From: Frigoribacterium sp. ACAM 257
GTDB lineage: Bacteria > Actinomycetota > Actinomycetes > Actinomycetales > Microbacteriaceae
Direction: 5' to 3'
DNA length: 64,000 nt
Assembly: GCF_007954365.1 (NCBI RefSeq)
Contig: NZ_VOLO01000004.1
Location: 1-64,000, forward strand
How positions within the stretch are numbered: position 1 is the stretch's first letter; the number at the start of each line of letters is the position of its first letter. The notes below the pieces were generated by a model. That model saw only the letters and a list, made by a program, of their open reading frames with translations. It was not told the DNA's origin and did not search any database. Made by a program: the position numbers and the translations under genes. This document shows, one piece after another, positions 23,835 to 54,769 of this stretch.

Positions 23835-23874
23835 TTTCGCGGAGGTTCCCGCCGTGGCCCGGTGCGGCGAGCGC

Positions 23875-25056: not shown

Positions 25057-25080
25057 GGCGCCTCCTCCGACGATCAGCAG

Positions 25081-25129
25081 TGTAGTGACGACCGACTCCT
25101 TGACCCGGCACATCGTTGCGCACTACAAA
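25081..25129 (+). promoter_or_regulatory. Alpha-galactosidase promoter with inverted repeat
   Basis: TTGACC at 25100-25105 and TACAAA at 25124-25129 are 18 bp apart, a good -35/-10 pair. TGTAGTG at 25081-25087 and CACTACA at 25121-25127 are inverted copies 40 bp apart centre to centre; the second overlaps the -10. They are candidate ROK operator sites. Confidence 0.6.
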
Positions 25130-25182
25130 TAAGCGTCGAGGTCGACCCCCTCGGCAGCCCGCGACCCTGCCAGAGGAGCACG

Positions 25183-33129: not shown

Positions 33130-33956
33130 ATGCGCCCACGCGCCCGCACCACCTCCGCTGCCCGCACCTCCTCGTCCGCTCGTCCGCGCGTCGTCGGCGC
33201 CGCCGTCGCGTCCGCCGCCGGGCTCGCGCTCGCCCTCGCCGCGCCCGTCGCCGCCCAGGCCCATGTCGAGCTCGAGGCGTCGTCGACCGCTCCCGCGGCG
33301 CTGAGCGTGCTGACCCTCGCGGTCGGCCACGGCTGCGAGGGATCCCCCACCACCTCCCTCGCCGTCACGTTCCCCCCCCCGAGGTCCAGGCCGTGACGCC
33401 GACCGTCAAGCCCGGCTGGTCGATCACCGAGTCGCCCGCCGCCTCCGCTGAGGGCACCGCGGCCGAGACCGCGGAGGCCGAGGCGACGGGCACCGACACC
33501 GACACCGGCACCGGCACCGGCACCACGGTCACCTGGACCGCCGAGCCCGGCTCCGCCCTGCCCGACGGCCTCCGCGACACGGTCGCCGTCTCGGCCCTGC
33601 TCCCGGTCGGGGGTGAGGCCGGCGACCTCGTCGCGTTCCCCACCGTGCAGACCTGCGAGGTCGGCTCGTACGACTGGGTCGAGCTCGCGGAGGCGGGCTC
33701 CGACGCCGAGCCCGCGTCCCCGGCGCCGGCCCTGACCCTCACCGAGGCGAGCGGCGGCGACGCGGGCGGCAGCAGCAGCAGCACCGACGGCGCCGCTGCG
33801 ACCGGCACGCAGGAGGCGGCAGCCGCCTCGTCGGCCGTCGCCCCCGTCGACGAGACGGCCAGGGCCCTCGCCCTCGGAGCCCTCGTCGTCGGAGTCGTCG
33901 GGCTCGTGCTGCTCACGACGACCCTGCGCCGCCGTGCCGCGGAGGCCGGCCGATGA
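33130..33956 (+). pseudogene. YcnI-like (DUF1775) copper-binding protein gene interrupted at a C9 tract
   Basis: The first frame (from 33130) encodes a signal peptide ending PVAAQAHVELEASSTAPA, then LSVLTLAVGHGCEGSPTTSLAVTFP, the classic YcnI opening with the mature N-terminal His. At nine consecutive C (33372-33380) the frame breaks and stops at 33396. The family sequence resumes in another frame as EVQAVTPTVKPGWSI and runs to a C-terminal membrane segment (ALALGALVVGVVGLVLL) and stop at 33956, which overlaps the PepSY gene by ATGA. Seven or ten C would restore one protein. It could be a real inactivation, phase variation by slippage, or a sequencing error. Confidence 0.85.
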
Positions 33957-35410
33957 GCGGGATCGGCACCTGGCTCGGCCCCCTCCTGCTGCGACTGCAC
34001 TTCTGGGCGGCGATCGTGGTGGGGCCGTTCATCCTCGTCGCGGCCCTGACGGGGGCCGCGTACGCGATCGCGCCGACGCTCGAGAAGGCCGTCTACGCCG
34101 ACGAGCTCACCGCTCCCGGCACCGGCCCCGCGCTGCCGCTCGCCGTCCAGGTCGAGGCGGCCGAGCAGGTCGTCGGAGACGGCGGCGAGCTCGTCGCCGT
34201 GCGCCCCGCACCCGAGCCCGGCGACACGACGCGCGTGCAGTTCACGGGCGACGACCTGATCGAGAGCCAGACCCGGGCGGTCTTCGTCGACCCGGCGACG
34301 GCCGAGATCCGCGGCGACCTGCCCGTCTACGGCACGAGCGGCTCGCTGCCCCTGCGCACGACGATCTCCGACCTGCACCGCAGCCTCGGGCTCGGCGACG
34401 TCGGCCGCCTCTACAGCGAGCTCGCCGCCAGCTGGCTCGGCGTCGTCGTGCTCGCGGGCCTCGGCCTGTGGATCGCCCGCCGCCGCCGGGCACGAGGACC
34501 AGGACAGGCGAGGGCACGTGCACGACGCGACCTCGTGCGACCCGACCTCCGTGCGACGGGACTGCGGCGGCTGTTCTCGTGGCACGCCTCGGTCGGCGTC
34601 GTGCTGACCCTCGGGGCGCTGTTCCTCTCGGCGACGGGCATCACCTGGTCGCAGCACGCCGGCGACGACGTCACCGCGCTGCGGGCCGCGCTCAGCTGGA
34701 CCGCTCCGACGCTCGACACCGCGCTGCCGGCCGAGAGCAGCGACGCAGCGGGCGCAGGCACGAGCACAGGCACAGGAGGCGCGGCACCCGACCCCGAGGA
34801 CGTCGCAGCCGACCCGCACGCCGGGCACCACGGAGCCGCCGCACCCGGGGTCGTGGACGTCGACCCTGCCCTGTTCGACGACGTGCTCGCCGTCGCGCAG
34901 ACGGTGAACGTCGACACCGGCCTCGTCGAGATCAAGCCGCCCGCCGACGCCGACAGCGCCTGGACCGTCACCGAGATCAAGAGGAGCTGGCCGACCCAGG
35001 TCGACTCCACGGCGGTCGACGGCACGACGCTCGCCGTCGTCGACCGGACCGACTTCGCCGACCACCCGCTGATGGCGAAGCTGGCCCGCTGGGGCGTCGA
35101 CACGCACATGGGCACCATGTTCGGCCTGCCGAACCAGCTCCTCCTCGTCGTGACGGCACTCGGGGTCGCCGCGATGGTCGTGTTCGGCTACCTGATGTGG
35201 TGGCGACGCGGCGGCGCAGGAGGTGCGGGCCGGTTCCGCACCGGACGCCCCGCCCCCGCAGGCGCGCTCGTCCGCGCCCCGTGGCAGGGCCTCGTCGCGG
35301 TCGTCGCCGTGGGCCTCGTGGTGGGCCTGTTCCTGCCGATGGTCGGGCTCGGGCTCGTGCTGTTCGTCGTGGTCGACGCCCTCGTGACGGCGGCCCGCAC
35401 GCGCGCGTAG
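33953..35410 (+). CDS. PepSY-associated transmembrane protein
   Basis: 485 residues. The start LLRLHFWAAIVVGPFILVAALTGAAYAI is the typical first helix of PepSY_TM proteins; DLHRSLGLGDVGRLYSELAASWLGVVVLAGLGLWI and FSWHASVGVVLTLGALFLSATGITW follow, each with conserved His. An extracytoplasmic loop carries DPHAGHHGAA. The end has further helices. Such proteins occur with copper or iron transport genes. Its ATG overlaps the stop of the YcnI-like gene, supporting joint function. Confidence 0.88.
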   Translation: MSGIGTWLGPLLLRLHFWAAIVVGPFILVAALTGAAYAIAPTLEKAVYADELTAPGTGPALPLAVQVEAAEQVVGDGGELVAVRPAPEPGDTTRVQFTGDDLIESQTRAVFVDPATAEIRGDLPVYGTSGSLPLRTTISDLHRSLGLGDVGRLYSELAASWLGVVVLAGLGLWIARRRRARGPGQARARARRDLVRPDLRATGLRRLFSWHASVGVVLTLGALFLSATGITWSQHAGDDVTALRAALSWTAPTLDTALPAESSDAAGAGTSTGTGGAAPDPEDVAADPHAGHHGAAAPGVVDVDPALFDDVLAVAQTVNVDTGLVEIKPPADADSAWTVTEIKRSWPTQVDSTAVDGTTLAVVDRTDFADHPLMAKLARWGVDTHMGTMFGLPNQLLLVVTALGVAAMVVFGYLMWWRRGGAGGAGRFRTGRPAPAGALVRAPWQGLVAVVAVGLVVGLFLPMVGLGLVLFVVVDALVTAARTRA

Positions 35411-35508: not shown

Positions 35509-36498
35509 TCAGCGGTAGAGGGCGTCCTGCCCGTAGAGCGGCTGCGTGAAGCTCGAGACGAACTCGCTGCGGTCGCCACCGGGCAGGCTGTACGTGAGGA
35601 ACACGCCGTAGCCCTCGTCGATCGTGCGCTGGGCCAGAGCCGCCGCCGTGGTCGCCGACGTCGCCTGGATGTCGACCGCCGCGGGCGACAGCTGCTGCTT
35701 GCCGAGTCCGGGGATCGCCGGCACCCGCCAGCTGCCGTAGTAGGGGTTCCACGCGTAGTCGAGCTGCGCGTTCACGGCCGGGTCGGTGGCGGCGAGGCTC
35801 GCCGAGGCCGGGCCGATGTCGTAGAACGACAGCACGGCGTCCGGCAGCTCGGCGCGGAGGGCCGAGATCAGCCAGCCGGCGGACCGGTCGTTCGGCTGCG
35901 GGGTGCCGCCGACCCCGTAGTCGGAGTACTCGTCGTCGAGGTCGACCCCGTCGAGGCCGTACCGCTCGACGACGTCGGCGACCTGCGCGGCGAAGTCGGC
36001 CGCCGCCTCCGGCGAGGTGAAGTTCGCGATGCCCGCGCCCTGGTGGTTGCCGAGCACGGACAGCGAGACGTCGATGCCCTTCGCCTGGAGCGGCCTGATC
36101 TGGTTCGCGGCGTCGTCGAGGGTGGCCTGCACCCGGTCGTTCAGCGACAAGACCGCCTTCGACCCGTCGTGGTCGATGTTCGCCGCGAAGATGATCGCGA
36201 CGTCGAAGGCGTTCGAGCCGTCCTCCAGCGTGTAGCGGCCGACGTTGCTCAGGTCCTCGTCGTTGACCTCGACGTAGGCGATGCTGGTCGGCCCGGCGCC
36301 CGCGGCGGAGACCGCACTCCCGGCGCCTCCCTCCGCCGATGCCGAGGCCGACGCGGACGCCGTGCCGGCGACTGCTGCGGGGACGGCGACCACCGCGACC
36401 GCGACGGCGGCGAGCAGCCGTCTGGCGGCCCTCGCCCGACTGGGTCGGCGGCTGCTCACGGCGGCGTCGTGCTGCTTCTCGTTCTCGTTCTCGTGCAT
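35509..36498 (-). CDS. Secreted EndoH-like GH18 endo-beta-N-acetylglucosaminidase
   Basis: 329 residues. A Sec signal peptide (basic RARAARR, then LLAAVAVAVVAVPAAVAG, Ala-Ser-Ala cleavage region near 48) leads to a GH18 barrel: TSIAYVEVNDEDLSNVGRYT, VSLSVLGNHQGAGIANF and the catalytic DGVDLDDE (Asp183 to Glu190), followed by YSDYG, as in EndoH. It ends with a Gln/Tyr-rich segment (AWNPYYGSW, YGVFLTYSLPGG). Enzymes of this kind cut between the two core GlcNAc residues of high-mannose N-glycans. RBS GAGGAG; its own promoter carries the LacI operator shared with the importer operon, tying it to the mannosidases next door. High confidence on family, moderate on substrate. Confidence 0.88.
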   Translation of the reverse strand: MHENENEKQHDAAVSSRRPSRARAARRLLAAVAVAVVAVPAAVAGTASASASASAEGGAGSAVSAAGAGPTSIAYVEVNDEDLSNVGRYTLEDGSNAFDVAIIFAANIDHDGSKAVLSLNDRVQATLDDAANQIRPLQAKGIDVSLSVLGNHQGAGIANFTSPEAAADFAAQVADVVERYGLDGVDLDDEYSDYGVGGTPQPNDRSAGWLISALRAELPDAVLSFYDIGPASASLAATDPAVNAQLDYAWNPYYGSWRVPAIPGLGKQQLSPAAVDIQATSATTAAALAQRTIDEGYGVFLTYSLPGGDRSEFVSSFTQPLYGQDALYR

Positions 36499-36549
36499 GT
36501 CACTCCTCGTCGAGCGGTGCAGCGGTCGCGGATGTCGGCCGCTGCCTCG

Positions 36550-36578
36550 ACCATCCACGACTTAAACGCTTTAGTCAA
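36550..36578 (-). promoter_or_regulatory. Endoglycosidase promoter with LacI-type operator
   Basis: On the minus strand TTGACT (36578-36573), 17 bp, GATGGT (36555-36550). The 16-bp near-palindrome at 36560-36575 (ACTTAAACGCTTTAGT on the + strand) overlaps the -35 box. The same arrangement occurs at 47640-47668. Confidence 0.75.
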
Positions 36579-36651
36579 CGATCGCTCCGGAGCCGGAGCC
36601 GGAGCCGGAGCGGAGCGGGCCCGAGCCGGCGGCGGAGGCGCTCGAGACCCG

Positions 36652-39600
36652 TCAGCCCAGCACCTCGACCTGCAGGAGGCGGAGGTCGCCCACCGCAGTC
36701 AGCCTCACTCCGTGCACGTCAGCGTCCGCACCCGGCGCCGCACCCGGCGACGCGGGCGGCGACACGACGGGCGCTCGGAACACCCTGGTCTGCCCTGGCC
36801 GATCGAAGACCTCTTCCTCCCGGTGGTCGACACCTGCCGACGTCGAGGCCGCTCCCCCTCCGTCGAGCGCCTCGAGGGTCCACGAGAACGCCCCGGGCTC
36901 CTCGACCGTCACCGTGTAGAGACCCACGGAGGCGACGGGCGTCGCGAAGTCGAGCTCGACGGCCTGCCCCGCCGCGACGCGCACAGGGCGTGCGGCCTCG
37001 TCGTCCACGAGCGCGGCGGCGTGCCGGACGCCCGAGGCACGCCCGCCCGCCGTCGCGTCGCGGATCTCTCGCCGGTGTCCGTGCTGCTGCGACGCGGAGA
37101 AGGGCCTCGATGCGGCCGCCCACCCACAGGGCGTCGTCGACAGCTCGAACTCGATCGTCGCACCGGCCACGAGACGTGCGTGGTCGATGGACACGTCGTG
37201 CCACTCGACGCCGTCGACGAGCACCCGCCGGACGAAGCGTCCCCCCTCGTCGGGGTTCGTCACGACCAGCGTGATCGGGGGGCCGCCCTGCGGCCGCAGG
37301 ACGGTGCGCTCGACCGCCGGGGGCAGCAGCAGGTAGCTGCCCGAGGCCGGCACCAACGGATAGAGGCCGATCGTGGCGAAGATCCACCACGCGCTCATCT
37401 CGCCGTTGTCCTCGTCGCCCGGGTAGCCCTGGCCGAGGTCGGATCCGACGAAGAGCCGGTCGAGCGCGTCCCGGACGACGCGGTGAGCGTCGTCGTGCCT
37501 CCCGGCGAACGCGTACATGAAGGGGATGTGGTGGGCCGGCTGGTTCGAGAGGCCGAGCATGCCGCGACGGACGTCGCGCGCCTCCGTCATCTCGTGGATG
37601 GCGAAGCCGTACGACCCCGACAGCGACGCCGCCCCGGTCTCCGGCTGGGCGAAGAACCGGTCGAGCGCGGCCCCGAGCGCCTCCTCGCCGCCGTGCAGCT
37701 CGGCGAGGCCCGCACCGTCGTGCGGCACAGTGAACGCCGTGCCCCAGGCGTTCGTCTCGGTGTAGTCGTGCCCCCACTCGGCCGGGTCGAAGCTCTCGGC
37801 GGGCACGCGCCACCCGCCGTCGGGGCGGCGACCGACGAAGAAGCCGCGGGCGCGGTCGAAGACGGTGCGGTACTGGGCCGACCGCCGGGCGAACCACTCC
37901 GCCTCGGCGCTCGCACGCTCGTGCTCCGGCGTGCCCGGCTCGTGGCGCGCGGCGACGAGGGCGGCGAGCCGGGAGGTCGACCAGTCGTTGATCGCCGCGT
38001 CGAGGGTCCACGACATCCCCTCGGGGGTGTCCGTGTCGACCCAGCCGCGGAACAGCCCGGGGTGCAGGCCCTTGCGGCCGACCCGGCGGTCGGTGGGCGG
38101 CACCGTCGCGTTCGTGACGGCGCTCGCGTAGGCCTGCTCCAGGTCGAGCCCGGGCACGCCCTTGACGAGCAGGTCGGCGAAGACGGTGTCGCTGGTCGTG
38201 CCGGTCATCACGTCCTCGGCGCCGGGCGCGCTCCAGCGCGGGGTCCACCCGCCGTCGAGGTGGTGCTGCACGAAGCCCTGGGCGAGCGCGCCCGCCGACG
38301 ACGGCGTGAGCAGGCCGAGCAGGGGCCAGGCTGTGCGGTAGGTGTCCCAGAAGCCGTTCGTCGACGAGTACGGCCCGACGACGACCTCGGCGGCGGCGAC
38401 GGCGCCTGCCCCGGCACCGGGACCGGCCTCGGCGCCCGGGGCGGCGTCGCGGATCGGCGAGGACAGCACGCTGCCGTACGGGCTGCGCGACCGCGCCGGC
38501 CCGCCCGCCGGGGACTCGCCGTGCCGGGTCGGGAACGAGAAGAGCCGCGCGAGTCCGCTGTACAGCGACACCCGCTGGTCGAGCGTCGCGCCGCGCACCT
38601 CGACCGTGTCGAGCGCCTCGGCCCAGCGTCGCTCCGCCTCTGCGCCCATCTCGTCGAATCCGCCTGCCGCCGCCAGGTTCACCCTCGCCTCGTCACGGCC
38701 GACCGTCGAGATGCCCAGCAGCACGTCGACGGGCCCCGAGGAGGCGTCGACCACGACCCAGCCCCGCAGCCGGCCGCTCCGGACCGTCAGGTGCTCGCGA
38801 GGGTCGTCGTGCGTCGCCGGGCCGACGCGCAGGTGCACGAAGTGCGGCGGAGTCTCCGGCCGGTCGTCGAGGACGAGGTCGACGACCAGGTCGTCGCCCT
38901 CTCGCACCAGCGACACGTCGGCCACGGTGCCGTGGTGGTCGAGCACGACGGAGGAGGTCGGGCCCGCGAACGAGAAGCGCATCCCGAGCGCGAAGTCGCC
39001 GGCGGTCAGCGCCGCGTCCACTCCCCCGTCGAGCCGGACCCGGTACAGGTGCGGCCAGTCGACCTCGTCCGCGTGGTCGAAGCCGAGCGCCCGCCCCGTC
39101 GGCGAGACGTCCGGCTGTGCGGAGGGGCTCGGCATCACCTGGAACACGCCGCGGTCGCCCATCCACGGACTCGGCAGGTGCGAGGTCGCGAAGGCCTGCA
39201 GCGTGGGGCGGTTGTCGCTCGCCCGGTTGTGCTCGTGCCAGGAGTAGGGCCAGTCCGACTTCGTGGCGTCGGTGGTCGGCAGGCCGAGGACGCCCCCGTG
39301 GGGCACCGAGACGTGCGGTGCCGTGTTGCCGCGCGAGAACCGGCCGGAGGACTGCGTGCCCCGGGTGGTGCGAACGTGGTCGAGCGGCGTGGCCGGCTCG
39401 ACGGGACGCGGCGCGATGCCGACGTCGTCGACGAAGACGACGAGGTCGCGCGCGGCGGACGCCCTGGCCGTCACGACGACGCGCTGCACGCGGCGGCCGG
39501 CGCACGGGCCGAGGTCGACGGTCCGCAGGTTCCACTGGTCGACCCAGAGGCGCTCGGCGGCCGCCTGGTCGTCGGGGCCGAGGCGGCCGCCGTACTGGTC

Positions 39601-39930
39601 GACCGCCTCCGGGAGGTCGGTCAGCCAGCCGCCGTCGTCGAACTGGACGTCGAGCGCGACCGCCGTCGCGTCCCAGAGGCTGTCGAAGGGCGCGTCGGCC
39701 CCGACCGGGCAGACCTGCCAGCTCAGCTGGTCGAGCACGTCGACGGGGTGCCCGGTCGCGACCGGGAGGTCGGCCCGGACGAGGCCGGCGCCGGCGTCCA
39801 CGTCGAGGCGCCACGCCTCGAGCGACGTCGCGCCGACCCCCGGCCTCGCGGCGACCGGCGCGGACGGGCCCCCGTCGCGACGCAGGGCGCCGAGCTCGAC
39901 GACGCCGTCGGGCCGCGTCTCGCCCGTCAC
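36652..39930 (-). CDS. GH92 alpha-mannosidase
   Basis: About 1092 residues from a GTG at 39930 that overlaps the GH38 stop (GTGA). The N-terminal beta-sandwich is followed by SSGRFSRGNTAPHVSVPHGGVLGLP, typical of GH92, then the (alpha/alpha)6 domain with TYRTAWPLLGL, ETNAWGTAFTVPHD and the calcium-site/catalytic region YPGDEDNGEMSAWWIFATIGLYP near residue 840, and PLVPASGSYLLLPPAVE. GH92 enzymes are calcium-dependent exo-alpha-mannosidases. No signal peptide is seen, so it should work in the cytoplasm, unlike the exported GH92 enzymes of Bacteroidetes. A jelly-roll-like extension of about 250 residues precedes and a sandwich domain closes the protein. Linkage preference cannot be read from sequence. 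Confidence 0.9.
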   Translation of the reverse strand: MTGETRPDGVVELGALRRDGGPSAPVAARPGVGATSLEAWRLDVDAGAGLVRADLPVATGHPVDVLDQLSWQVCPVGADAPFDSLWDATAVALDVQFDDGGWLTDLPEAVDQYGGRLGPDDQAAAERLWVDQWNLRTVDLGPCAGRRVQRVVVTARASAARDLVVFVDDVGIAPRPVEPATPLDHVRTTRGTQSSGRFSRGNTAPHVSVPHGGVLGLPTTDATKSDWPYSWHEHNRASDNRPTLQAFATSHLPSPWMGDRGVFQVMPSPSAQPDVSPTGRALGFDHADEVDWPHLYRVRLDGGVDAALTAGDFALGMRFSFAGPTSSVVLDHHGTVADVSLVREGDDLVVDLVLDDRPETPPHFVHLRVGPATHDDPREHLTVRSGRLRGWVVVDASSGPVDVLLGISTVGRDEARVNLAAAGGFDEMGAEAERRWAEALDTVEVRGATLDQRVSLYSGLARLFSFPTRHGESPAGGPARSRSPYGSVLSSPIRDAAPGAEAGPGAGAGAVAAAEVVVGPYSSTNGFWDTYRTAWPLLGLLTPSSAGALAQGFVQHHLDGGWTPRWSAPGAEDVMTGTTSDTVFADLLVKGVPGLDLEQAYASAVTNATVPPTDRRVGRKGLHPGLFRGWVDTDTPEGMSWTLDAAINDWSTSRLAALVAARHEPGTPEHERASAEAEWFARRSAQYRTVFDRARGFFVGRRPDGGWRVPAESFDPAEWGHDYTETNAWGTAFTVPHDGAGLAELHGGEEALGAALDRFFAQPETGAASLSGSYGFAIHEMTEARDVRRGMLGLSNQPAHHIPFMYAFAGRHDDAHRVVRDALDRLFVGSDLGQGYPGDEDNGEMSAWWIFATIGLYPLVPASGSYLLLPPAVERTVLRPQGGPPITLVVTNPDEGGRFVRRVLVDGVEWHDVSIDHARLVAGATIEFELSTTPCGWAAASRPFSASQQHGHRREIRDATAGGRASGVRHAAALVDDEAARPVRVAAGQAVELDFATPVASVGLYTVTVEEPGAFSWTLEALDGGGAASTSAGVDHREEEVFDRPGQTRVFRAPVVSPPASPGAAPGADADVHGVRLTAVGDLRLLQVEVLG

Positions 39931-42900
39931 GAGCTGGCGAGCCCGAAGCGCAGGGTGCGCACCTCGAAGCCGCCCAGGGCGAGCTCGACGGACCCGTCCT
40001 CGCCGAGCCCGTCGGCACCGGCACCGGCACCGGCACCGGCACCGGACAGTGCGCCCTCGAGCAACGAGACGGCCTCGACGCCCGTGACCTCGGCGTCGAC
40101 CCGGACGGTCGCGCGCACCCGGCGGCCGACCGGCTCCCAGAGCCGGACGACGAGGTCGCCCGACCGGTCGTCGGCCAGCTTGACGCTCGACACGAGCACC
40201 CCCTCCGACGCCGTGACGAGGGGCAGGACGCCCCTCGCCCCGGTCGTCGTCGTCCGGTCGACGTTCATCCAGATCCCCTCGGCCGTCGCGCCGGCGAGGT
40301 CGGTGCCGATCACCAGGCCGAACCGGTGGGTCTGCGTGCCCTGGTCGGTCGCCGGGTCGGGGAACCTCGGCGCCCGCAGCAGCGACAGGCGCACCGTCGT
40401 GCTGACGGCCCCGTCGTCGCTGTCGCGGGTGGTGTCGAAGCCGTAGGCCGAGTCGTTGACGAGGGCGACGCCGAAGCCGGGCTCGTCGACCAGCACGAAG
40501 CGGTGCATCGAGGTCTCGAACTTCGCCGCCTCCCACGAGGTGTTGACGTGGGTGGGCCGCCGGACGGCGCCGAACTGCGTCTCGGCCGTCGTGTGCTCGG
40601 CGCGGACGTCGAGCGGGAACGCGACCTTGAGGAACTTCTCGGTCTCGTGCCACTCGGTCTGCTGCGCCCACTCGAGCGTGCGACGGCCCGGCGCGAGGGT
40701 GAGGGTCTGGACAGCGGACGACGCGGAGAACGAGCGTCGGACAACGATCTGCACCGTGCCCGTCTCGTCGACCCGCGCCTCCATGCCGTCGAGCTCGCGC
40801 AGGTCCGTCACCGTGTTGCGGTAGTACCGGTCGACGTCCCACGCGTCCCACATGTTCGGGAAGTCCTGGTGCAGCTGGAGCAGGCCGGCGACCTGCCCGG
40901 GCGCGACGGCGTCACGGCCGGTCGCGAGGTCGACGGCGGAGACGACGAGACCCTGCGCGTCGACCACGACCCGGACCAGCTCGTTGGTCAGGACGAAGCC
41001 GCCGTCGCGGGCGACGAGCTCGACCGGGCGCACGTCGCGCGGCCCGACCACCCGGGCGGAGAACGCGGCCACGCCGTCGCGGGCGACCGGCGACGAGTTG
41101 ACCTCGATCTCGAGGTCGCCCTCTCCGACGAGGGCGGCCTGCGACCGCTCGACGATCGCCCTGGTGGCGGCCTCGACGCGGGCGTACTCCGCGACGGCCT
41201 CTCGGTGCACCCACGCGATCGACGTCCCCGGCAGGATGTCGTGGAACTGGTGCAGCAGCACCGTCTGCCAGAGCGAGTCGAGCTCGTCGTACGGGTAGTC
41301 GGCACCGGTGCGCACCGCCGCGGCGGTCGCCCACAGCTCGGCCTCGACCAGGAGGTGCTCGGTGCGCCGGTTGCCCTGCTTGGTCCGGTGCTGCGAGGTC
41401 AGGGTCGCCCGGTGCAGCTCGAGGTACAGCTCGCCCACCCAGACGGGCGGGTCGACGAGCTCGCCCCTGGCCCGCTCGAAGAAGACGTCGGGGTGCTCCC
41501 AGGCCACCCGCGCGCTGCCCTCGAGGTCGGCCAGCCTGGCGGCCTTGCCCGTCATCTCACGAGTCGTGCCCCCGCCGCCGTCGCCCCAGCCGACCGGGGC
41601 GATCGAGCCGCTGGCGAGCCTGTTCTCGCGGAACTGCACCGACGCCTTGGCAACCTCGGCCCCGGACAGCTGGGAGTTGTAGGTGTCCATCGACGGGAAG
41701 TGGGAGAAGGTGCGCGACCCGTCGATCCCCTCCCACTCGAAGGTGTGGTGGGGGAACTTGTTGACCTGGTTCCAGGAGATCTTCTGCGTGAAGAACCACC
41801 GGAACCCGGCGCGGTTCATCAGCTGCGGCAGGGCGGGCGAGTACCCGAAGCTGTCGGGCAGCCAGACTCCGGCGGGGCGGATGCCGAACTCGCGCTCGAA
41901 GAACCGCTGGCCCTGCGAGAACTGCCGCACGATCGACTCGCCGGAGGGCATCACCGTGTCGGACTCGACCCACATGCCGCCGAGCGGCAGGAACCGGCCG
42001 GCCTCGACGGCGGCGACGACACGCGCCCACACCTCGGGGCGGTGCTCCTTCACCCAGGCGTACTGCTGGGCGCTCGACATGCCGTAGACGAAGTCGTCGG
42101 TCTGGTCGATGAGCTCGGTCACCGACGACGCCGTGCGGGCCACCTTGCGGATGGTCTCGCGCACCGGCCACAGCCACGCAGAGTCGATGTGCGCGTGCCC
42201 CACCGCCGAGATCCGGTGCGCCGACGCCTCGGCGGGCGACGCGAGCACCGGTGCCAGGGCGGCCCTCGCGGCGGGCGCCGTCGCGACGAGGTGCTGCAGG
42301 TCGAGCGCGTCGAGGGCGTCGTCGAGGGCCTGGAGCACGCGCATGCGCCGGGGCCCCTGAGGCAGCTCGGCCTGGAGCTCGAGCAGCACCTCGACGTCGA
42401 GCGCCAGCTCGTGCAGCTCCGACTCGAACAGGGCGAGGTCCATCCGTCGGCTCGTGTAGAGCGGACGGGGCGACGAGGTCTGCACGTCGCCCTCGTCGGT
42501 CGGCAGGAAGGGGTGGTAGTCGAGCAGCACCGGGTTCGACGCGCACTCGACGAACCACTCGACCTGCTCGCCGGCTCTCGCCTCGTCGCTGACGAGCACC
42601 CACTGGTTGCGCGGGTTGATCGACTTCACCGGCGTGCCGTCGGCTCGGTAGACGAGGCCCTCGCACTGGAATCCCGGCATGTTGACGTCGAACCCGAGGT
42701 CGACGACGGCCTCGACCCGACGCCCGGCCCAGTCGGCCGGGACGGTGCCCCGCAGCCGGAACCAGGTCGTGCCCCAGGCCGCGCCCCACGGGCTGCCGAC
42801 CTCGTAGGGCTCGTAGCCGAGCGCGAGCCCCTCGGTCGGCGGCACCGGCTCGCCCGGCAGCACGTGCCAGGCGACCTCGAGCGGCACCGACGTCGCGTGC

Positions 42901-42971
42901 ACGGCCGGGACGATGCGCTCGTCGAGCACCCGGCGGGCGCGTCCGATGGTCAGGGGGATGTCGTCGTGCAT
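39927..42971 (-). CDS. GH38 alpha-mannosidase
   Basis: 1014 residues, the normal length for bacterial GH38. The zinc site starts with GHAHIDSAWLWP (residues about 258-269), the nucleophile is Asp373 in WLPDSFGYSPALPQ, and HQFHDILPGTSI supplies late zinc-site histidines. The enzyme is zinc-dependent and retaining, and lacks a signal peptide. It is coupled to GH92 by a 4-bp overlap and follows the GH5 gene by 94 bp. In an N-glycan context it would trim alpha-1,3/1,6-linked mannose after import. A (GA)n run near the C-terminus comes from GGCACC hexanucleotide repeats. Confidence 0.94.
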   Translation of the reverse strand: MHDDIPLTIGRARRVLDERIVPAVHATSVPLEVAWHVLPGEPVPPTEGLALGYEPYEVGSPWGAAWGTTWFRLRGTVPADWAGRRVEAVVDLGFDVNMPGFQCEGLVYRADGTPVKSINPRNQWVLVSDEARAGEQVEWFVECASNPVLLDYHPFLPTDEGDVQTSSPRPLYTSRRMDLALFESELHELALDVEVLLELQAELPQGPRRMRVLQALDDALDALDLQHLVATAPAARAALAPVLASPAEASAHRISAVGHAHIDSAWLWPVRETIRKVARTASSVTELIDQTDDFVYGMSSAQQYAWVKEHRPEVWARVVAAVEAGRFLPLGGMWVESDTVMPSGESIVRQFSQGQRFFEREFGIRPAGVWLPDSFGYSPALPQLMNRAGFRWFFTQKISWNQVNKFPHHTFEWEGIDGSRTFSHFPSMDTYNSQLSGAEVAKASVQFRENRLASGSIAPVGWGDGGGGTTREMTGKAARLADLEGSARVAWEHPDVFFERARGELVDPPVWVGELYLELHRATLTSQHRTKQGNRRTEHLLVEAELWATAAAVRTGADYPYDELDSLWQTVLLHQFHDILPGTSIAWVHREAVAEYARVEAATRAIVERSQAALVGEGDLEIEVNSSPVARDGVAAFSARVVGPRDVRPVELVARDGGFVLTNELVRVVVDAQGLVVSAVDLATGRDAVAPGQVAGLLQLHQDFPNMWDAWDVDRYYRNTVTDLRELDGMEARVDETGTVQIVVRRSFSASSAVQTLTLAPGRRTLEWAQQTEWHETEKFLKVAFPLDVRAEHTTAETQFGAVRRPTHVNTSWEAAKFETSMHRFVLVDEPGFGVALVNDSAYGFDTTRDSDDGAVSTTVRLSLLRAPRFPDPATDQGTQTHRFGLVIGTDLAGATAEGIWMNVDRTTTTGARGVLPLVTASEGVLVSSVKLADDRSGDLVVRLWEPVGRRVRATVRVDAEVTGVEAVSLLEGALSGAGAGAGAGADGLGEDGSVELALGGFEVRTLRFGLASS

Positions 42972-43065
42972 GGTGGCCTCTCGCTGGGCGTCACGGATCT
43001 GGTCAGGTCGGGTCTCGGTCGTTCGGTCGGGGCAGCTCGGGCGGTCAGCTCCAGCAGACCACAGC

Positions 43066-44379
43066 TCACCGCAGCGTGGCGGGGTGCGCGGCCGCCAGGG
43101 GGACGGATCCGCGCCCGGTCGTCCTGTGGAGGGTCCGCACTCCCCTCGCCTCGAGGAGGCGCTGGTCGCCGAGCCGGGACGCCAGCACCACCTGGGGCCC
43201 GCGTCCCGTGCTCTCGGCCAGGCGCAGCCAGGCGGACGAGAACGCCCCGCCGGGGGCGCAGGAAGCCCGGTGCCCCGGCGCGGGCGACCCGTCGGGGGCG
43301 ACGTCGTCGAGCACGAGCGCGTCCGGCACGGGGACCGGGGCCCGCCGGCTCCTCAGCTCGGCGGCGACCTCGGCGAACCGGCGGCCGGTCGGCTTGAGCA
43401 CCCCGTCGGCCGTGAAGAGCCCCAGGTCGTGCTCGAGGTCGGGGAAGTCGCTCAGCGTGCGCGACACGTCGTGCGAGCACCACCAGGTCACGCCCCAGAC
43501 CCCGGGGACGTCGGCCGCGTGGCGCAGCGTCCCCTCGACGAAGTCGGGGCCGTCGGCCACGGGCACGACGTTGGTCGGCGAGCCCACCTCCTGCAGCCAG
43601 CTCGGCCGGCCGGGGTCGCGGTTCCACGCCGCTGCGAGCTGCAGCAGGTACTCGGCGTGCCGCGCCGAGCCGGGGCCGAGCGCGCCCGCGAGCTGTGCGG
43701 CCCCGTTGAACACCCACGAGTGCGTCACCGTGAGGTCGCCGTGGTCGGCCGCGTGGGCCGGCTCGAAGGGCTGCCGGTCGTCGTACCAGGCGGCGTCGTA
43801 CATCGCGTGGGTGACCGACGGGACCCGACCCGAGGAGGTGCCGCCCGCCTCCTCCAGGCCCTCGCGCGCCGCGCTCGTCATCGTCTCGAGCCAGGCCGAG
43901 GCCCCCGCCGTGTCGACGGGGTGAGGCGTCGGGTGCGGCGGCCCGGCGAACTGGTTGAGCTCGTTGCCGACCGTGACGCCGACGAGGGAGTCCCGGCCTC
44001 CAACCGTGCGCGCCAGGGCCCTGACGTAGTCGGCCGTGGAGGCGACGACGTCGGGATCCGTGAACAGGTTGCGCCGGTGCCAGCTCTCGAGCCACGACGG
44101 CACGAAGTCGAAGCTCGACAGGTGGCCCTGCACCGCGTCGACGCTGGTGTCGAGCCCCGCGGCGGCCGCCAGGTCGACGACCGTCGCCACGTCGTCGAGA
44201 CCGCGGCGCCGGATCAGCGTGCGGTTCGGCTGGACGAGCGGCCACACCGGGAACACGCGGACGTGGTCGACGCCGAGCGACGCGATCTGCTCGAGGTCGC
44301 GGGCGACGGCGTCGACGTCGAAGTCGAGCCACGAGTGGAACCAGCCCTGGGAGGGCGTGTAGTTGACCCCGAACCGCAT
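43066..44379 (-). CDS. GH5-type glycosidase, probable beta-mannosidase (GH5_18-like)
   Basis: 437 residues. It starts MRFGVNYTPSQGWFHSWLDF and shows the clan A pattern: HVRVFPVWPL, VTVGNELNQF with acid/base Glu140, WLQEVGSP with nucleophile Glu264, and WGVTWWCSHDVSR. I associate this combination with GH5 subfamily 18, whose studied members release mannose from Man-beta-1,4-GlcNAc, the core disaccharide left after EndoH-type cleavage and alpha-mannosidase action. That subfamily call is from memory. It has no signal peptide and its ATG shares one base with the stop of the permease gene (TGATG), so it is translated with the importer. Confidence 0.82.
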   Translation of the reverse strand: MRFGVNYTPSQGWFHSWLDFDVDAVARDLEQIASLGVDHVRVFPVWPLVQPNRTLIRRRGLDDVATVVDLAAAAGLDTSVDAVQGHLSSFDFVPSWLESWHRRNLFTDPDVVASTADYVRALARTVGGRDSLVGVTVGNELNQFAGPPHPTPHPVDTAGASAWLETMTSAAREGLEEAGGTSSGRVPSVTHAMYDAAWYDDRQPFEPAHAADHGDLTVTHSWVFNGAAQLAGALGPGSARHAEYLLQLAAAWNRDPGRPSWLQEVGSPTNVVPVADGPDFVEGTLRHAADVPGVWGVTWWCSHDVSRTLSDFPDLEHDLGLFTADGVLKPTGRRFAEVAAELRSRRAPVPVPDALVLDDVAPDGSPAPGHRASCAPGGAFSSAWLRLAESTGRGPQVVLASRLGDQRLLEARGVRTLHRTTGRGSVPLAAAHPATLR

Positions 44380-45326
44380 CAGCCCTTCACGCCTCCCTCT
44401 TCGAGGCCCTTGAAGAAGAACCGCTGCAGCACCGCGAAGACGATCGCGATCGGGATGAAGGCGATCATCGTGCCGGCGGCGATCAGCCGCTGGTCGTTGC
44501 TGAAGGTGCCGGCGAGGTACTGGAGGCCGATCGTGAGGGTGAAGTTGTCGGGCGTCGTCAGCACGATCAGGGGCCAGAGGAAGTCGTCCCACGCGCCGAT
44601 GAACGAGAAGATCGCGACGACCGCGATGGTGCCCCGGACGGCGGGCAGCGCGATCAGGCGGAGGCGCTGCCAGGCGTTCGCGCCGTCCATCACCGCCGCC
44701 TGGTCGATCTCGTCGGGGATCTGCCGGAACGCGTTGAACATCAGCAGCACGTTGAGGGCGGCGATCATGCCCGGCAGCGCGACGCCCACGAGGGTGTCCG
44801 CGAGGCCGAGGTCGCGGATCGTCAGGAACTGCGACACGATCGTCACCTCGCCGGGCAGCACCAGGGTCGCCAGGAACAGCCCGAGCACGATGCCCCTGCC
44901 CTTGAACCGCAGCCGCGCGATCGCGAAGCCGGCCAGCGTCGCGAAGATCACGTTGCCGCCGACGTCGATCGCCGCCACGACCAGCGAGTTGCCGATGTAG
45001 CTGAAGACGGGGATCGCGTCGGCCACCTTCAGGTAGTTCTCGATGGTCGGCTGCGACGGGACGAAGCTCGGCGACCGCGTGTAGATGTCCTCCCCGCTGC
45101 CCTTGAGCGAGGTCGAGAACTGCCAGAGGAACGGGCCGATGCAGATCACCAGCACGAAGAGCAGCAGCACGTAGCGCAGCACCCGCTCGCCGGCCCCCAT
45201 CGAGTCGATGCCGCGGCGGGGACGGCGCCCCCGTGGCTGCCGGGGCGGGACGCCGTCGGGTCCCGGGGCGGCAGCGCCCCGGGCGCCGTCGAGCACGGGC
45301 TCGGGCGTGGTCGTCGTCGTGCTCAT
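44379..45326 (-). CDS. Sugar ABC transporter permease (MalG type), N-glycan locus
   Basis: 315 residues with six membrane segments and the EAA loop IPDEIDQAAVMDGANAWQRLRLIALPA. The first helix is VLRYVLLLFVLVICIGPFLWQFSTSLK. It pairs with the permease encoded just upstream (ATGA overlap at 45323-45326). An N-terminal Pro/Arg-rich cytoplasmic tail of about 45 residues precedes the first helix. No ATPase gene is present in the locus; a shared MsiK-type ATPase encoded elsewhere is the usual solution in actinobacteria. Confidence 0.93.
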   Translation of the reverse strand: MSTTTTTPEPVLDGARGAAAPGPDGVPPRQPRGRRPRRGIDSMGAGERVLRYVLLLFVLVICIGPFLWQFSTSLKGSGEDIYTRSPSFVPSQPTIENYLKVADAIPVFSYIGNSLVVAAIDVGGNVIFATLAGFAIARLRFKGRGIVLGLFLATLVLPGEVTIVSQFLTIRDLGLADTLVGVALPGMIAALNVLLMFNAFRQIPDEIDQAAVMDGANAWQRLRLIALPAVRGTIAVVAIFSFIGAWDDFLWPLIVLTTPDNFTLTIGLQYLAGTFSNDQRLIAAGTMIAFIPIAIVFAVLQRFFFKGLEEGGVKG

Positions 45327-46201
45327 CGGTCTGCCTTGCTGTTGATGCGGGCGAGGGCGATCATCGGCACGAGCGTGACGACGAAGAGCAGCAGGCTGAG
45401 CGCGGAGGCGTAGCCCAGGTTGCCGGTGAAGCCGCGGGCGTACTGCTGGATGAGCATCACGAGCGACTGCACCTGGCCGCCGGGGCCGCCGGTGCCGTTC
45501 GTGAGGATGAACAGCTCGGAGAACACCCGCAGCGCCGAGACGCAGACGAGGATCGCGATCAGGGTCATCGCACCGCGGACGCCGGGCACGGTGACGCTGA
45601 AGAAGCGCCGGATCGCCCCGGCCCCGTCGATCGCGGCGGCCTCGTGGAGTTCTTTGCCGACGTTCCCGAGGGCGGCCAGGTAGATGATCATGTAGTACCC
45701 GAGCCCCTTCCAGACCGTGAGGCTGATGGCGCTGAAGAGCAGCAGCCACCGGTCGGTCAGGAAGGGCAGCGGGCCCTGGATCACCTGCAGGGCCTGCGCC
45801 ATCTCGTTGATGATGCCGCGGTCGTCGAGGATCCAGGTCCAGATGAGGCCGACGACGACCGCCGACGCGATGACCGGGGTGTAGAAGGCGGTGCGGAAGA
45901 ACGCGATGCCCGGCATGTTCTTCTCGACGAGCGTCGCGATGAACAACGGCAGCAGCGTCAGCAACGGCAGGCAGACCGCCATGTAGACGACGCTGTTGAG
46001 CAGCGCCAGCCACACCTGGGGGTCGCCCAGCAGGGTCTCGAAGTTCTGCAGCCCGACGAAGTCGGTCACGCCCCCGAGCGGGCTCGCGTTCGTGAACGAC
46101 AGCCTGACGGTGTTGATCGACGGCCAGAGGCTGAAGACCAGCAGCCACAGCAGTGCCGGCCCGACCAGCAGCCAGGGCGTGAACCAGCGGTTCGCTCTCA
46201 T
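45323..46201 (-). CDS. Sugar ABC transporter permease (MalF type), N-glycan locus
   Basis: 292 residues starting MRANRWFTPWLLVGPALLWLLVFSLWPSINTV. The EAA loop ELHEAAAIDGAGAIRRFFSVTVPG is intact. It forms the membrane channel with the following permease and lies 15 bp after the binding-protein gene. Specificity is inferred only from the surrounding mannosidase genes. Confidence 0.93.
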   Translation of the reverse strand: MRANRWFTPWLLVGPALLWLLVFSLWPSINTVRLSFTNASPLGGVTDFVGLQNFETLLGDPQVWLALLNSVVYMAVCLPLLTLLPLFIATLVEKNMPGIAFFRTAFYTPVIASAVVVGLIWTWILDDRGIINEMAQALQVIQGPLPFLTDRWLLLFSAISLTVWKGLGYYMIIYLAALGNVGKELHEAAAIDGAGAIRRFFSVTVPGVRGAMTLIAILVCVSALRVFSELFILTNGTGGPGGQVQSLVMLIQQYARGFTGNLGYASALSLLLFVVTLVPMIALARINSKADR

Positions 46202-46216
46202 GACGACCTGCTCCGG

Positions 46217-47542
46217 CTAGCCGTTGGCCAGGAGCTGGTTCATCTTCTGCTGGGCGGTGTCGAGCGCCTCCTGGGCCGTGACGTCGCCCTTCATCGCCAG
46301 CGCGATCTGCTGGTCGAGGAACTGCGTCATGGCCGAGTTGGCCTCGACCGGCGAGAGGTTCTCCGCCGTCTTCAGCGACTCGAAGGCGAGCGCCCTGGCC
46401 TTGCCGTCGACGGTGCCGTCGTCCTCGGAGAAGTACGGGTCGGACGCCGAAGCGGTCGTCGACGGGAACACGTTGACGATGTGGCCGAACGCGGCCTGGT
46501 TCTCCTCGTTCGTCATGAAGGCGGCGAACGCGGTGGCCGTCGCGAGCTCCTTGCTCTTCGCCGAGACGCTCAGCCCCTGCACGTAGAGCGGCGGGGTGTC
46601 GAGCGCGGGCGACACGACGACCTCGCCGTCGAGGCTCGGGTTGTTCGTGACGAAGTCGCTCAGCGACGAGGCGCCTCCGGTCGTCCAGGCCACCTTGGCC
46701 TGGGTGAAGAGGGTCGAGTTGCCGAGGTACTCGCTGGTGAGGACCGACGGCGGCAGGTAGCCCTCCTGGTACGCCTCCGCGTAGCGGTCGATCAGGTCGG
46801 CCGAGGCGTCGTCGTCGGCGAAGACGAACTCCGAGCCGTCGTCGCTGACGACCTGGGCGCCGGCCAGGCTGAAGTCGCTGAGGCCGGGCTTGCGGCTCAT
46901 CAGGTAGTCGTCGGGGCAGGCCTCGTGCATCGTGGCCGCCTGGGTGAAGAGCTCGTCGGTGTCGGCGGGCACCGCCGTGGAGTCGAGGCCACAGGCGTCC
47001 ATCCGGGCGGCGTTCCAGTAGTTGACGTCGGTGTTGAGGTACCACGGGTAGCCGTAGACCCCGTCGACGCCGTTGTACTCGTAGGCGTCGAGGGCTCCCG
47101 AGACGTACGTGTCGTCGAGGGCGTCGTCCGCCTGCGAGATGTCGTAGAGGAACCCGCGCTTCGCCAGCGGCAGCGCGATGTCGGGCGGCAGGTTGATCAC
47201 GTCGGGCAGCGTGCCCGAGCTCGCCTGGCTGAGCACCTTCTCCGCGTAGCCGTCGCCCGGCTGGTCGACGAGCTTCACCTCGGTGCCGGGGTTGGCCTCC
47301 TCGAACGCGGCGGCGACGCCGTCGAGGTAGTCCGTGTAGGTCGGGGTCAGCGACCAGGTCTGGACCGTGATGGTGCCGTCGACGGGCCCGTCGACGTCAC
47401 TGCCGGCGCCGCCTCCCGCACCGCCCGAGCAGCCGGAGAGGACGAGCGCGGAGGCCGCGGCGACGGCCGCGACGACGAGGGCGGGCCGCCGGCCGGACAG
47501 GCCGGGGAGGCGGCGGGAAGGGGAGGTGGGGGTGGGCAGCAT
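46217..47542 (-). CDS. Sugar-binding lipoprotein of the N-glycan locus importer
   Basis: 441 residues, family 1 extracellular solute-binding protein. The signal ends at lipobox LVLSGC (Cys about 31) and is followed by a Gly-rich linker and TITVQTWSLTPTYTDYLDGVAAAFEEANPG. ATG 47542 has AAGGAG 10 bp upstream; the frame is open 33 codons farther. It heads the operon binding protein, two permeases, GH5, GH38, GH92. Expected ligand: mannose-containing oligosaccharides released by the secreted endoglycosidase (inference). Confidence 0.93.
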   Translation of the reverse strand: MLPTPTSPSRRLPGLSGRRPALVVAAVAAASALVLSGCSGGAGGGAGSDVDGPVDGTITVQTWSLTPTYTDYLDGVAAAFEEANPGTEVKLVDQPGDGYAEKVLSQASSGTLPDVINLPPDIALPLAKRGFLYDISQADDALDDTYVSGALDAYEYNGVDGVYGYPWYLNTDVNYWNAARMDACGLDSTAVPADTDELFTQAATMHEACPDDYLMSRKPGLSDFSLAGAQVVSDDGSEFVFADDDASADLIDRYAEAYQEGYLPPSVLTSEYLGNSTLFTQAKVAWTTGGASSLSDFVTNNPSLDGEVVVSPALDTPPLYVQGLSVSAKSKELATATAFAAFMTNEENQAAFGHIVNVFPSTTASASDPYFSEDDGTVDGKARALAFESLKTAENLSPVEANSAMTQFLDQQIALAMKGDVTAQEALDTAQQKMNQLLANG

Positions 47543-47639
47543 GACGTCGGACTCCTTCGTTCGCGGTCGTGCGGGGTGAGGCGCTGAAGCGGTACAGGCG
47601 ACGGAGCCCGGTCGAGCTCCGTCGCGGGCCGGTGTCGTC

Positions 47640-47668
47640 ATCGTGAAGCACTAAAGCGCTATAGTCAA
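47640..47668 (-). promoter_or_regulatory. Importer promoter with LacI-type operator
   Basis: On the minus strand TTGACT (47668-47663), 17 bp, CACGAT (47645-47640). ACTAAAGCGCTATAGT at 47650-47665 is a 16-bp palindrome with one mismatched pair. It matches the operator at 36560-36575 and lies between the importer operon and its divergent LacI gene; TATAGT at 47660-47665 may also serve as -10 for lacI. Confidence 0.78.
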
Positions 47669-47715
47669 GCCTCGTCCTCCATGATGAGGCCATGACCGAT
47701 CCCGGAGGACCGCCC

Positions 47716-48783
47716 GTGACCCAGCCCCGGCGAGCCACCATCGGCGACATCGCGGCCAGGGCGGGCGTCTCGATCGGCGCGGTGTCGTTCGCGCTCAACG
47801 ACCGCCCCGGCGTCTCGGCCGAGACGCGGAGCCGCGTCAAGGCGATCGCCGCCGAGCTCGGCTGGCGCCCCCACTCCGCCGCCAGGGCGCTGAGCGGCGC
47901 CCGTGCCGGTGCCGTCGGCTTCGTGCTCAACCGACCTGCGCGGGCACTCGGCACCGAGTCGTTCTTCGGCGACCTGATCTCGGGCATCCAGCTGGGGCTG
48001 ACGAGCGCAGGAGGCGGTGGCCGGGACGGCTCCGCGCCCACGTCGCACGTGGCGCTCAACCTCCTCGTGGCCCGCGACCTCGACGAGGAGGTCGAGGTCT
48101 ACCGCGAGTGGTGGAGCGGACACCGGGTCGACGGCGTCCTCGTGATCGATCCCCGGGAGGACGACCCGCGCCTCCGGCTGCTCGAGGCCATCGGCATGCC
48201 GTTCGTGGTGATCGGGTCGCACCCCTCGACCACGGGAACAGGCCCGTCCGTCTGGATCGACGACGTCGCCGCGGCCGACACCCTCTTCGGCTACCTGCAC
48301 GCGCTCGGGCACCGGCGGTTCGCCCACGTGGCCGGCCGGGCCGAGTTCGAGCACACGGCACTGCGGCAGGCCGCCCTCGCGGAGTTCGCGCGCTCTGCCG
48401 GGCTCGAGACGGCGGAGACGATCACGACCGACTACTCGGCCGCCGCAGCCGCGGACGCGACCCGGCGCCTCCTGTCGCTGCCGGTCCGCCCCAGCGTCAT
48501 CGTCTACGACAACGACGTGCTCGCGGTCTCCGGCCTGGGGGTCGCCGCCGAGATGGGAGTGGACGTGCCCGGCGACCTCTCGGTCGCCTCCTTCGACGAC
48601 TCGGTGATGGCGCAGCTGGTGCGCCCAGCGCTGACGACGCTGACCCGCGACACCGTCGAGCTCGGCGAGCGCGCCACCCGGCTGCTGCTCGACCAGCTCA
48701 CGTCGCCGGAGCGGCTCGCGTCGCGGCCCGGGCCCGCGCTGACGCTGACCGTGCGCGCGTCGACGGCGCCGCCGCGGCGCTGA
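47716..48783 (+). CDS. LacI-family regulator of the N-glycan locus
   Basis: About 355 residues. HTH: ATIGDIAARAGVSIGAVSFALNDRPGVSAETRSRVKAIAAELGWRP at the N-terminus (positions about 8-53; hinge SAARALSG). The periplasmic-binding-like domain includes FGDLISGIQLG, VDGVLVIDP, ALGHRRFAHVAG and VASFDDS. GTG 47716 has GGAGG 7 bp upstream and is preferred; ATG 47692, in frame, has no clear RBS. Divergent from the importer operon and adjacent to the operator, it is the natural regulator of both this operon and the endoglycosidase. Confidence 0.92.
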   Translation: MTQPRRATIGDIAARAGVSIGAVSFALNDRPGVSAETRSRVKAIAAELGWRPHSAARALSGARAGAVGFVLNRPARALGTESFFGDLISGIQLGLTSAGGGGRDGSAPTSHVALNLLVARDLDEEVEVYREWWSGHRVDGVLVIDPREDDPRLRLLEAIGMPFVVIGSHPSTTGTGPSVWIDDVAAADTLFGYLHALGHRRFAHVAGRAEFEHTALRQAALAEFARSAGLETAETITTDYSAAAAADATRRLLSLPVRPSVIVYDNDVLAVSGLGVAAEMGVDVPGDLSVASFDDSVMAQLVRPALTTLTRDTVELGERATRLLLDQLTSPERLASRPGPALTLTVRASTAPPRR

Positions 48784-53302: not shown

Positions 53303-53309
53303 GAGGGGC

Positions 53310-54623: not shown

Positions 54624-54722
54624 CGTTGCCACCTGTTCCTCGTCGTTGAGCGGCCGTGGTCGGCCCGTGACGCAGCGCTCCGATGTGCTGCGTCGGACCA
54701 GTGTCAGAAACGGTCCGCAGCG

Positions 54723-54762
54723 TGTCAAACGTTTTCGAAAACCATTTCGACGGGGCTAGGCT
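54723..54762. promoter_or_regulatory. Divergent promoter region with LacI palindrome, GH3 locus
   Basis: GTTTTCGAAAAC at 54731-54742 is a perfect 12-bp palindrome with the CG centre usual for LacI operators. On the minus strand TTGACA (54728-54723) is followed 17 bp later by GACACT. On the + strand TAGGCT at 54757-54762 lies 7 bp before the GTG of lacI, implying a leaderless message. The palindrome differs in sequence from that of the N-glycan locus. Confidence 0.75.
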
Positions 54763-54769
54763 GCGGCTC

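Follow-up and report, generated by a model that had tools for sequence, protein, structure and literature searches.

A predicted high-mannose N-glycan catabolic locus in Frigoribacterium sp. ACAM 257, with an operator-like palindrome before both its transporter operon and its EndoH gene

The window analyzed here, the first 64,000 nucleotides (64 kb) of contig NZ_VOLO01000004.1 of the actinobacterium Frigoribacterium sp. ACAM 257, carries between positions 35509 and 48783 eight genes that look like a catabolic locus for high-mannose N-glycans. A codon-usage gene call combined with family searches (Pfam and NCBIfam) over the window found all eight where an initial annotation, made from the sequence letters, had placed them. 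On the plus strand, a LacI-family regulator gene recognized by Pfam (47716-48783) diverges from an operon on the minus strand, which opens with a lipoprotein solute-binding protein (46217-47542; Pfam SBP_bac_8/SBP_bac_1) and two ATP-binding cassette (ABC) sugar permeases, one at 45323-46201 with UgpA as its best NCBIfam match and one at 44379-45326 with UgpE and MalG, all below the cut-offs of those models. The importer and regulator described in that annotation were thus borne out by Pfam. Downstream lie three glycoside hydrolase (GH) genes, for a predicted GH5_18 beta-mannosidase (43066-44379; 437 amino acids), a GH38 alpha-mannosidase (39927-42971; 1014 amino acids), and a GH92 enzyme (36652-39930; 1092 amino acids). 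From the binding protein through GH92, neighboring genes overlap or lie no more than 95 bp apart. A gap of 153 bp then precedes the eighth gene, which runs in the same direction as the operon and encodes a secreted endo-beta-N-acetylglucosaminidase H of family GH18 (EndoH; 35509-36498, minus strand; 329 amino acids). The main operator-like palindrome, ACTATAGCGCTTTAGT, occupies positions 47650-47665 in the intergenic region between the LacI and binding-protein genes, and a second, ACTAAAGCGTTTAAGT, lies at 36560-36575, about 60 bp before the EndoH start. In both promoters the palindrome overlaps a TTGACT hexamer, an arrangement that would suit a repressor, and a clear -10 box was seen in neither.

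EndoH scores 376 bits on the curated NCBIfam model NF045482 (cut-off 300) and 330 bits against the solved EndoH 6ve1, and it has the catalytic DxDxE motif as DLDDE at residues 186-190. The GH5 enzyme gave zero matches in a Pfam search; its closest solved relative is ScGH5_18 (7lr7), at 450 bits, followed by BlGH5_18, BlMan5B, and the exo-beta-1,4-mannosidase 6gvb, and its predicted catalytic residues E140 (TVGNELNQ) and E264 (WLQEVG) are invariant in nine aligned sequences, the window's own included. Judged by these nearest solved relatives and conserved residues, the enzyme belongs to subfamily 18 and would act on Man-beta-1,4-GlcNAc. The initial annotation had let its reading stand or fall with a GH5 inside subfamily 18 and a GH18 among the relatives of EndoH, and this is where the two enzymes fall. 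GH38 carries the 38N, middle, and 38C domains together with HAHID and WLPDSFG motifs, and its closest solved relatives are four entries titled "Alpha-mannosidase" (7ufr, 7ufs, 7uft, and 7ufu; 798 bits to 7ufs), which we take to be Bifidobacterium longum GH38 enzymes. GH92 scores 357 bits in Pfam, with 7nsn as its best solved relative, and alignments with 7nsn and 2wvx point to E725 as the acid, D839 and D841 as the bases, and W256, H779, and E780 at the +1 subsite. The paper on the 7nsn enzyme attributes alpha-1,2 specificity to a Trp/His-Glu triad and also identifies the acid and the base (PMC10167667); the window enzyme retains the residues of that specificity and is predicted to be an alpha-1,2-mannosidase. 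Signal-like stretches were judged by the hydropathy of the first 70 residues, which peaks at 2.67 in both EndoH and the binding protein, the latter with a lipobox-like LSGC, and at 0.90, 1.27, and 1.05 in GH92, GH38, and GH5. The pattern noted earlier, a signal peptide on EndoH and none on the other three enzymes, therefore stands.

We propose, with a probability of roughly 0.87, that the locus serves the catabolism of high-mannose (Man5-Man9) N-glycans, which would be cut outside the cell by EndoH, imported whole, and trimmed in the cytoplasm. The secreted EndoH would cut the chitobiose core of glycoproteins, so that one N-acetylglucosamine (GlcNAc) stays on the protein and Man(n)GlcNAc is freed; the lipoprotein and the two permeases would import this glycan whole, with a MalK-type ATPase, whose gene lies elsewhere, supplying the energy. 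In the cytoplasm, GH92 would take off alpha-1,2 mannoses and GH38 alpha-1,3/1,6 mannoses, GH5_18 would split Man-beta-1,4-GlcNAc, and mannose and GlcNAc would reach central metabolism via ManA and NagB. The LacI protein would repress the transporter/mannosidase operon and, via the second operator, EndoH, and through this shared control all parts would be expressed together. We infer every activity, the imported ligand, and the ATPase partner from sequence. Release outside, import, and trimming inside is the order of events suggested when the locus was first noticed, and it gains support from the family tests above and from the shared operator and the mutual exclusivity of EndoH and GH85 described below. 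Elsewhere in the genome we found one MalK-type ATPase, one ManA, one strong NagB with a weaker relative, and one GH20. The gene for this GH20, the only one found (L113), adjoins a sugar ABC permease-like gene.

The same enzymes might instead serve fungal or yeast cell-wall mannan or mannoprotein side chains, with GH92 trimming the side chains of imported fragments. The GH92 relative 7nsn (NnGH92) is active on yeast alpha-mannan (PMC10167667), and the high-mannose core is present on yeast mannoproteins too. We nevertheless consider this unlikely, given that GH5_18 and EndoH act at a GlcNAc core that mannan side chains lack and that no endo-alpha-mannanase is among the genes annotated in the locus by Pfam and NCBIfam. 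Having no signal-like stretch, GH92 should also not reach a wall polymer.

A GH5_18-based scan of a genome collection returned 579 relatives, the best 80 of which were fetched as loci; all counts out of 80 refer to these, 71 of them longer than 20 kb ("long") and the others short, and the counts are taken as they stand, without correction for relatedness. Around GH5_18, GH38 and the binding protein are each present in 74/80 loci, and the two permeases and a LacI gene are each present in 75. The whole core is present in 66 of the 71 long loci, 63 of which keep the window's order with a divergent LacI gene, and carriers include Curtobacterium, Leifsonia, Labedella, Microbacterium, Sanguibacter, Serinibacter, actinoplanetes, and Streptomyces. 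EndoH (22/80) and GH92 (7/80) are less regular members. A GH92 relative (E 1e-120) was found in 37 of 39 genomes searched, the L017 genome having been left out, mostly more than 10 kb from the operon. Within the family, GH5_18 occurs in 8 of 150 sampled Microbacteriaceae genomes, including that of the window. The initial annotation had expected this host to be a new setting for such a locus, a claim that does not survive the recurrence of the core in 66/71 long GH5_18 loci across many actinobacteria. The locus type is already known from Cutibacterium, Bifidobacterium, and Streptomyces, and its setting is common rather than new; the parts worth following are the operator rule and the signal-less GH92.

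The intergenic regions between LacI and binding-protein genes have a palindrome in common, ACTAWAGCGCTTTAGT. In 68 such regions, the window's included, the best site is within 2 mismatches of the consensus in 58 regions and differs from it by 3 or 4 in the other 10, a count that is not independent because the consensus was chosen from those same regions. In the 3.33-Mb genome of the window strain, the palindrome occurs at the two places given above and nowhere else, both at no more than 2 and at no more than 3 mismatches (2 forward and 2 reverse matches at the latter setting), with the reversed control matching 0 and 0 times at the stricter setting and 1 and 1 times at the looser one. Zero matches came from 100 shuffles of the window. 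Starting from the loci, 20 genomes were searched, and 15 of them match at no more than 1 mismatch, with 0 matches for the reversed controls. A matrix built from 57 sites (18 distinct ones), with the window and all EndoH sites excluded, scores 31.5 before the window's binding protein and 25.4 before its EndoH, and below -6 before GH92, GH38, and GH5. As background, 10 of 2984 500-base stretches in the loci reach a score of 12, and 7 of these lie upstream of a GH5_18, GH85, or GH92 gene in those loci. Scores above 10 lie before GH5_18 in 5/80 cases and before GH38 in 1/74, and 3 of 30 GH92 upstream regions reach 12.

These sites apparently mark a LacI regulon, with a conserved palindrome in the divergent promoter and again before a second member gene; the pairing of this regulator with this operator, like the inducer, is something we infer. 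Among the matches listed in openly licensed literature, none dealt with this operator or with an EndoH/GH92/GH38/GH5_18 locus in Microbacteriaceae. A survey of LacI regulons lists ManR for mannose and mannosides, and its main text makes no mention of Streptomyces, Microbacteriaceae, or N-glycan (PMC4052901). A bifidobacterial N-glycan cluster is described as potentially controlled by NglR, a paralog of NagR (PMC9599254).

Sites before EndoH genes, counted as present at a matrix score of at least 13 and with one gene at a contig end (L129) left out, follow the position of the gene. Of the 22 EndoH genes in linked loci, the site precedes 4, and these are the ones not placed after GH38; the other 18, which come after GH38 at a distance of up to about 600 bp, are all without it. 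Across EndoH-bearing genomes it precedes 8 of 9 non-Streptomyces EndoH genes; the ninth, from Sanguibacter, reaches 7.1, and the sequence there resembles the diverged main site of the same genome. The Microbacterium and Labedella genes appear both among these nine and among the linked four, and with each gene counted once and the window added, the total comes to 11 genes with the site out of 12 non-Streptomyces EndoH genes that have no GH38 gene directly before them. Three of 48 control stretches around EndoH genes also reach at least 15 (15.6, 19.8, and 19.8). Sites of those scores lie before the GH92 genes of Labedella (L048, position 2316; 15.6) and Sanguibacter (L163; 19.8), where GH92 adjoins EndoH, which makes it probable that two or more of the three are further members of the regulon rather than chance matches. 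The similarity of main and EndoH operators was also compared within and between genomes, with 32 mismatches observed against 39.8 expected by shuffling, a figure as low in 1.1% of shuffles. This comparison covered 11 genomes with kinship ignored; L078 was left out, its main site wanting, and L013 entered by the site before its GH5.

GH85 provides a second view of the endoglycosidase position. Between its GH5_18 and GH38 genes, Streptomyces sp. ISL-11 (L043) has one that Pfam assigns to GH85, and over all loci GH85 is present in 21/80, one of them (L075) by a partial match only (residues 603-676), while EndoH and GH85 occur together in 0/80. GH85 and EndoH cut alike, and the replacement of one by the other therefore favors a role of the core in N-glycan use. 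With L075 left out, the site precedes 3 of 3 GH85 genes on the opposite strand, compared with 0 of 17 on the same strand; for one of those 3 genes (L087), the site falls in the region that it shares with the divergently read binding protein.

GH92 relatives of Curtobacterium-type genomes share the start position of the window enzyme. Among ten inspected, seven have an in-frame stop so close before the match (no more than 17 residues) that a signal peptide would not fit, and two have longer open frames; the tenth (L139), in the wrong frame, was dropped from this check. A hydrophobic signal-like stretch is present in 7/7 other relatives inspected (four from Streptomyces, two from actinoplanetes, and one from Nonomuraea), with an open frame before the match of 223-321 residues in six and of 120 in L160. 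A tree of 37 rows places the labeled signal-less and signal-bearing enzymes on two sides (support 100/96 and 100/99) and groups the window GH92 with the Curtobacterium-type rows (100/97). Twelve rows were labeled signal-less, 7 by the stop check and 5 from predicted N termini alone, and 17 were unlabeled. The tree is midpoint rooted, which does not show the older state, and carries a long-branch warning that includes the window's own branch; a move of GH92 from outside to inside the cell is therefore likely, not proven.

Alternatively, a nonclassical route might take GH92 and GH38 out of the cell, where they would trim glycans ahead of EndoH, as has been suggested for SpGH92 of Streptococcus pneumoniae, a scenario that we regard as very improbable here. 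EndoH can release glycans above Man5, so an intracellular GH92 would meet its substrate, and the window enzyme sits in a clade apart from signal-bearing relatives. The S. pneumoniae authors argued that their signal-less GH92 is extracellular because the GH85 enzyme EndoD cannot release glycans above Man5 (PMC5215778). A review likewise places the GH92 of S. pneumoniae outside the cell and has B. longum and Bacteroides thetaiotaomicron demannosylate glycans after importing them whole (PMC10154615). We continue to favor trimming in the cytoplasm. Of the initial annotation's argument for a cytoplasmic GH92, the enzyme's lack of a signal-like stretch holds, and its novelty is weaker now that a signal-less GH92 proves to have been published for S. 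pneumoniae.

Several observations weigh against this pathway and its proposed control. The binding protein has distant matches only among solved structures (best 88.6 bits), and the GH5_18 relatives GimA and GimB work in the opening of Actinoplanes sporangia (PMC12691653), so that kinship to GH5_18 alone leaves the role unfixed. At the E 1e-15 cut-off, EndoH was found in 17 of 46 genomes searched and not in the other 29, which include all 6 actinoplanetes, and these 6 are without a linked GH85 as well. Five of the 20 genomes searched for the palindrome have no match at no more than 1 mismatch; the main site of L037, L048, and L035 is diverged, and L072 has another. In the window, EndoH has a site of its own even though it lies collinear with the operon after GH92, so the rule that only genes apart from the operon carry one is not clean. 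Most Curtobacterium GH92 relatives have no operon within 10 kb and no site. Finally, GH5_18 occurs in 1 of 16 genomes of the genus, the window's own, and is absent from 15/15 congeners, in view of which a gain of the locus by transfer was considered.

None of the 7 Streptomyces EndoH genes carries the site, and 58 of the 80 fetched loci (some short) show no EndoH. Both counts would fit an EndoH that is an independent scavenging or chitinase-like enzyme standing beside the mannosidase operon by chance. We hold this to be highly improbable for the window, where the palindrome before EndoH is one of only two in the genome; in Curtobacterium sp. Leaf261, moreover, the same site precedes an EndoH gene on a different contig from the operon. 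As a separate observation, an operator-like palindrome in Streptomyces sp. WAC 01529 (L108, position 1501) precedes a GH18-like gene (491-1462), which resembles EndoH at 29% over 157 residues and lies at about 7.85 Mb, with the main locus at 7.71 Mb, and this gene is possibly another member of the regulon. Taking EndoH as part of the N-glycan pathway, we lean slightly toward a broader picture, in which one orthologous LacI-type regulator controls an N-glycan regulon across several actinobacterial families, the secreted EndoH and GH85 are exchangeable and are regulated either in the operon or via their own operator (with Streptomyces EndoH outside this scheme), and the Microbacteriaceae GH92, whose nearest relatives elsewhere are secreted, is cytoplasmic, which would allow glycans up to Man9GlcNAc to be imported intact and kept from competitors.

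Among known systems, Streptomyces supplies ScGH5_18 (7lr7), the best match of the window's GH5, and Higgins et al. reportedly described in 2021 GH5_18 genes of Gram-positive bacteria (Streptomyces and Bifidobacterium) in loci with common core genes. Unlike the window, the Streptomyces loci fetched here have no linked GH92, and their linked endoglycosidase, where there is one, is a GH85. The high-mannose system of B. thetaiotaomicron relies on SusC/D-type uptake and periplasmic trimming. Its polysaccharide utilization locus resembles the window in joining a GH18 endoglycosidase and GH92 in one operon, but it has three GH92 enzymes and a Gram-negative host, whereas the window has a Gram-positive ABC importer and proposed cytoplasmic trimming (PMC10154615). 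N-glycan-processing locus 1 of Cutibacterium acnes clusters signal-less GH38 and GH5_18 enzymes with GH18, ABC genes, and a regulator, as the window does, and there cytoplasmic trimming has been proposed and the GH5_18 activity confirmed; that locus has GH20, whereas the window locus has GH92 and no GH20 (PMC6160142). The term GH92 has 0 occurrences in the main text of that paper. B. longum, as we propose here, imports whole glycans and keeps its alpha-mannosidases inside, but it trims alpha-mannose with three GH38 enzymes and one GH125, compared with one GH92 and one GH38 in the window (PMC10154615). S. pneumoniae shares with the window GH92, GH38, an ABC binding protein (for Man5GlcNAc), and the absence of a signal peptide on GH92, and it differs in using the GH85 enzyme EndoD and GH125 and in the extracellular location argued for SpGH92 (PMC5215778).

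Foreign base composition was ruled out for the locus, with a G+C content at third codon positions of 0.947-0.982 in the eight genes compared with a mean of 0.954 elsewhere. Extension of the locus into 48943-55807 was also ruled out, as that region has a GH3 gene and its own transporter and LacI-like genes, and the operator site is absent there. Its GH3 has a curated NCBIfam beta-xylosidase/alpha-arabinosidase match and stands with ABC transporter genes, and the LacI-like gene at 54770-55807 was recognized by eye from its N terminus. On the other side, a DUF1775 protein followed by a PepSY_TM protein (33393-35410) adjoins the locus. Farther away, the open reading frame called at 23854-27372 has a GH36 alpha-galactosidase as its C-terminal part, its first ~480 residues being probably a false extension, and the gene at the end of the window (62182-63960) contains a 267-base tandem repeat (62777-63711) and encodes five TIG-domain stretches, its product being perhaps a surface or secreted protein.

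The operator could serve as a cheap marker for the endoglycosidase and further parts of the pathway in other genomes, and the promoter could be used to sense free N-glycans. The combination of EndoH with a signal-less GH92 bears on the argument made for S. pneumoniae, as GH92 can work inside the cell if the endoglycosidase releases large glycans. To our knowledge, bacterial feeding on N-glycans has been studied mostly in gut and pathogen settings. The presence of a complete, apparently coregulated version of the system in environmental actinobacteria suggests that plant, fungal, or animal glycoproteins are a real food for these organisms.

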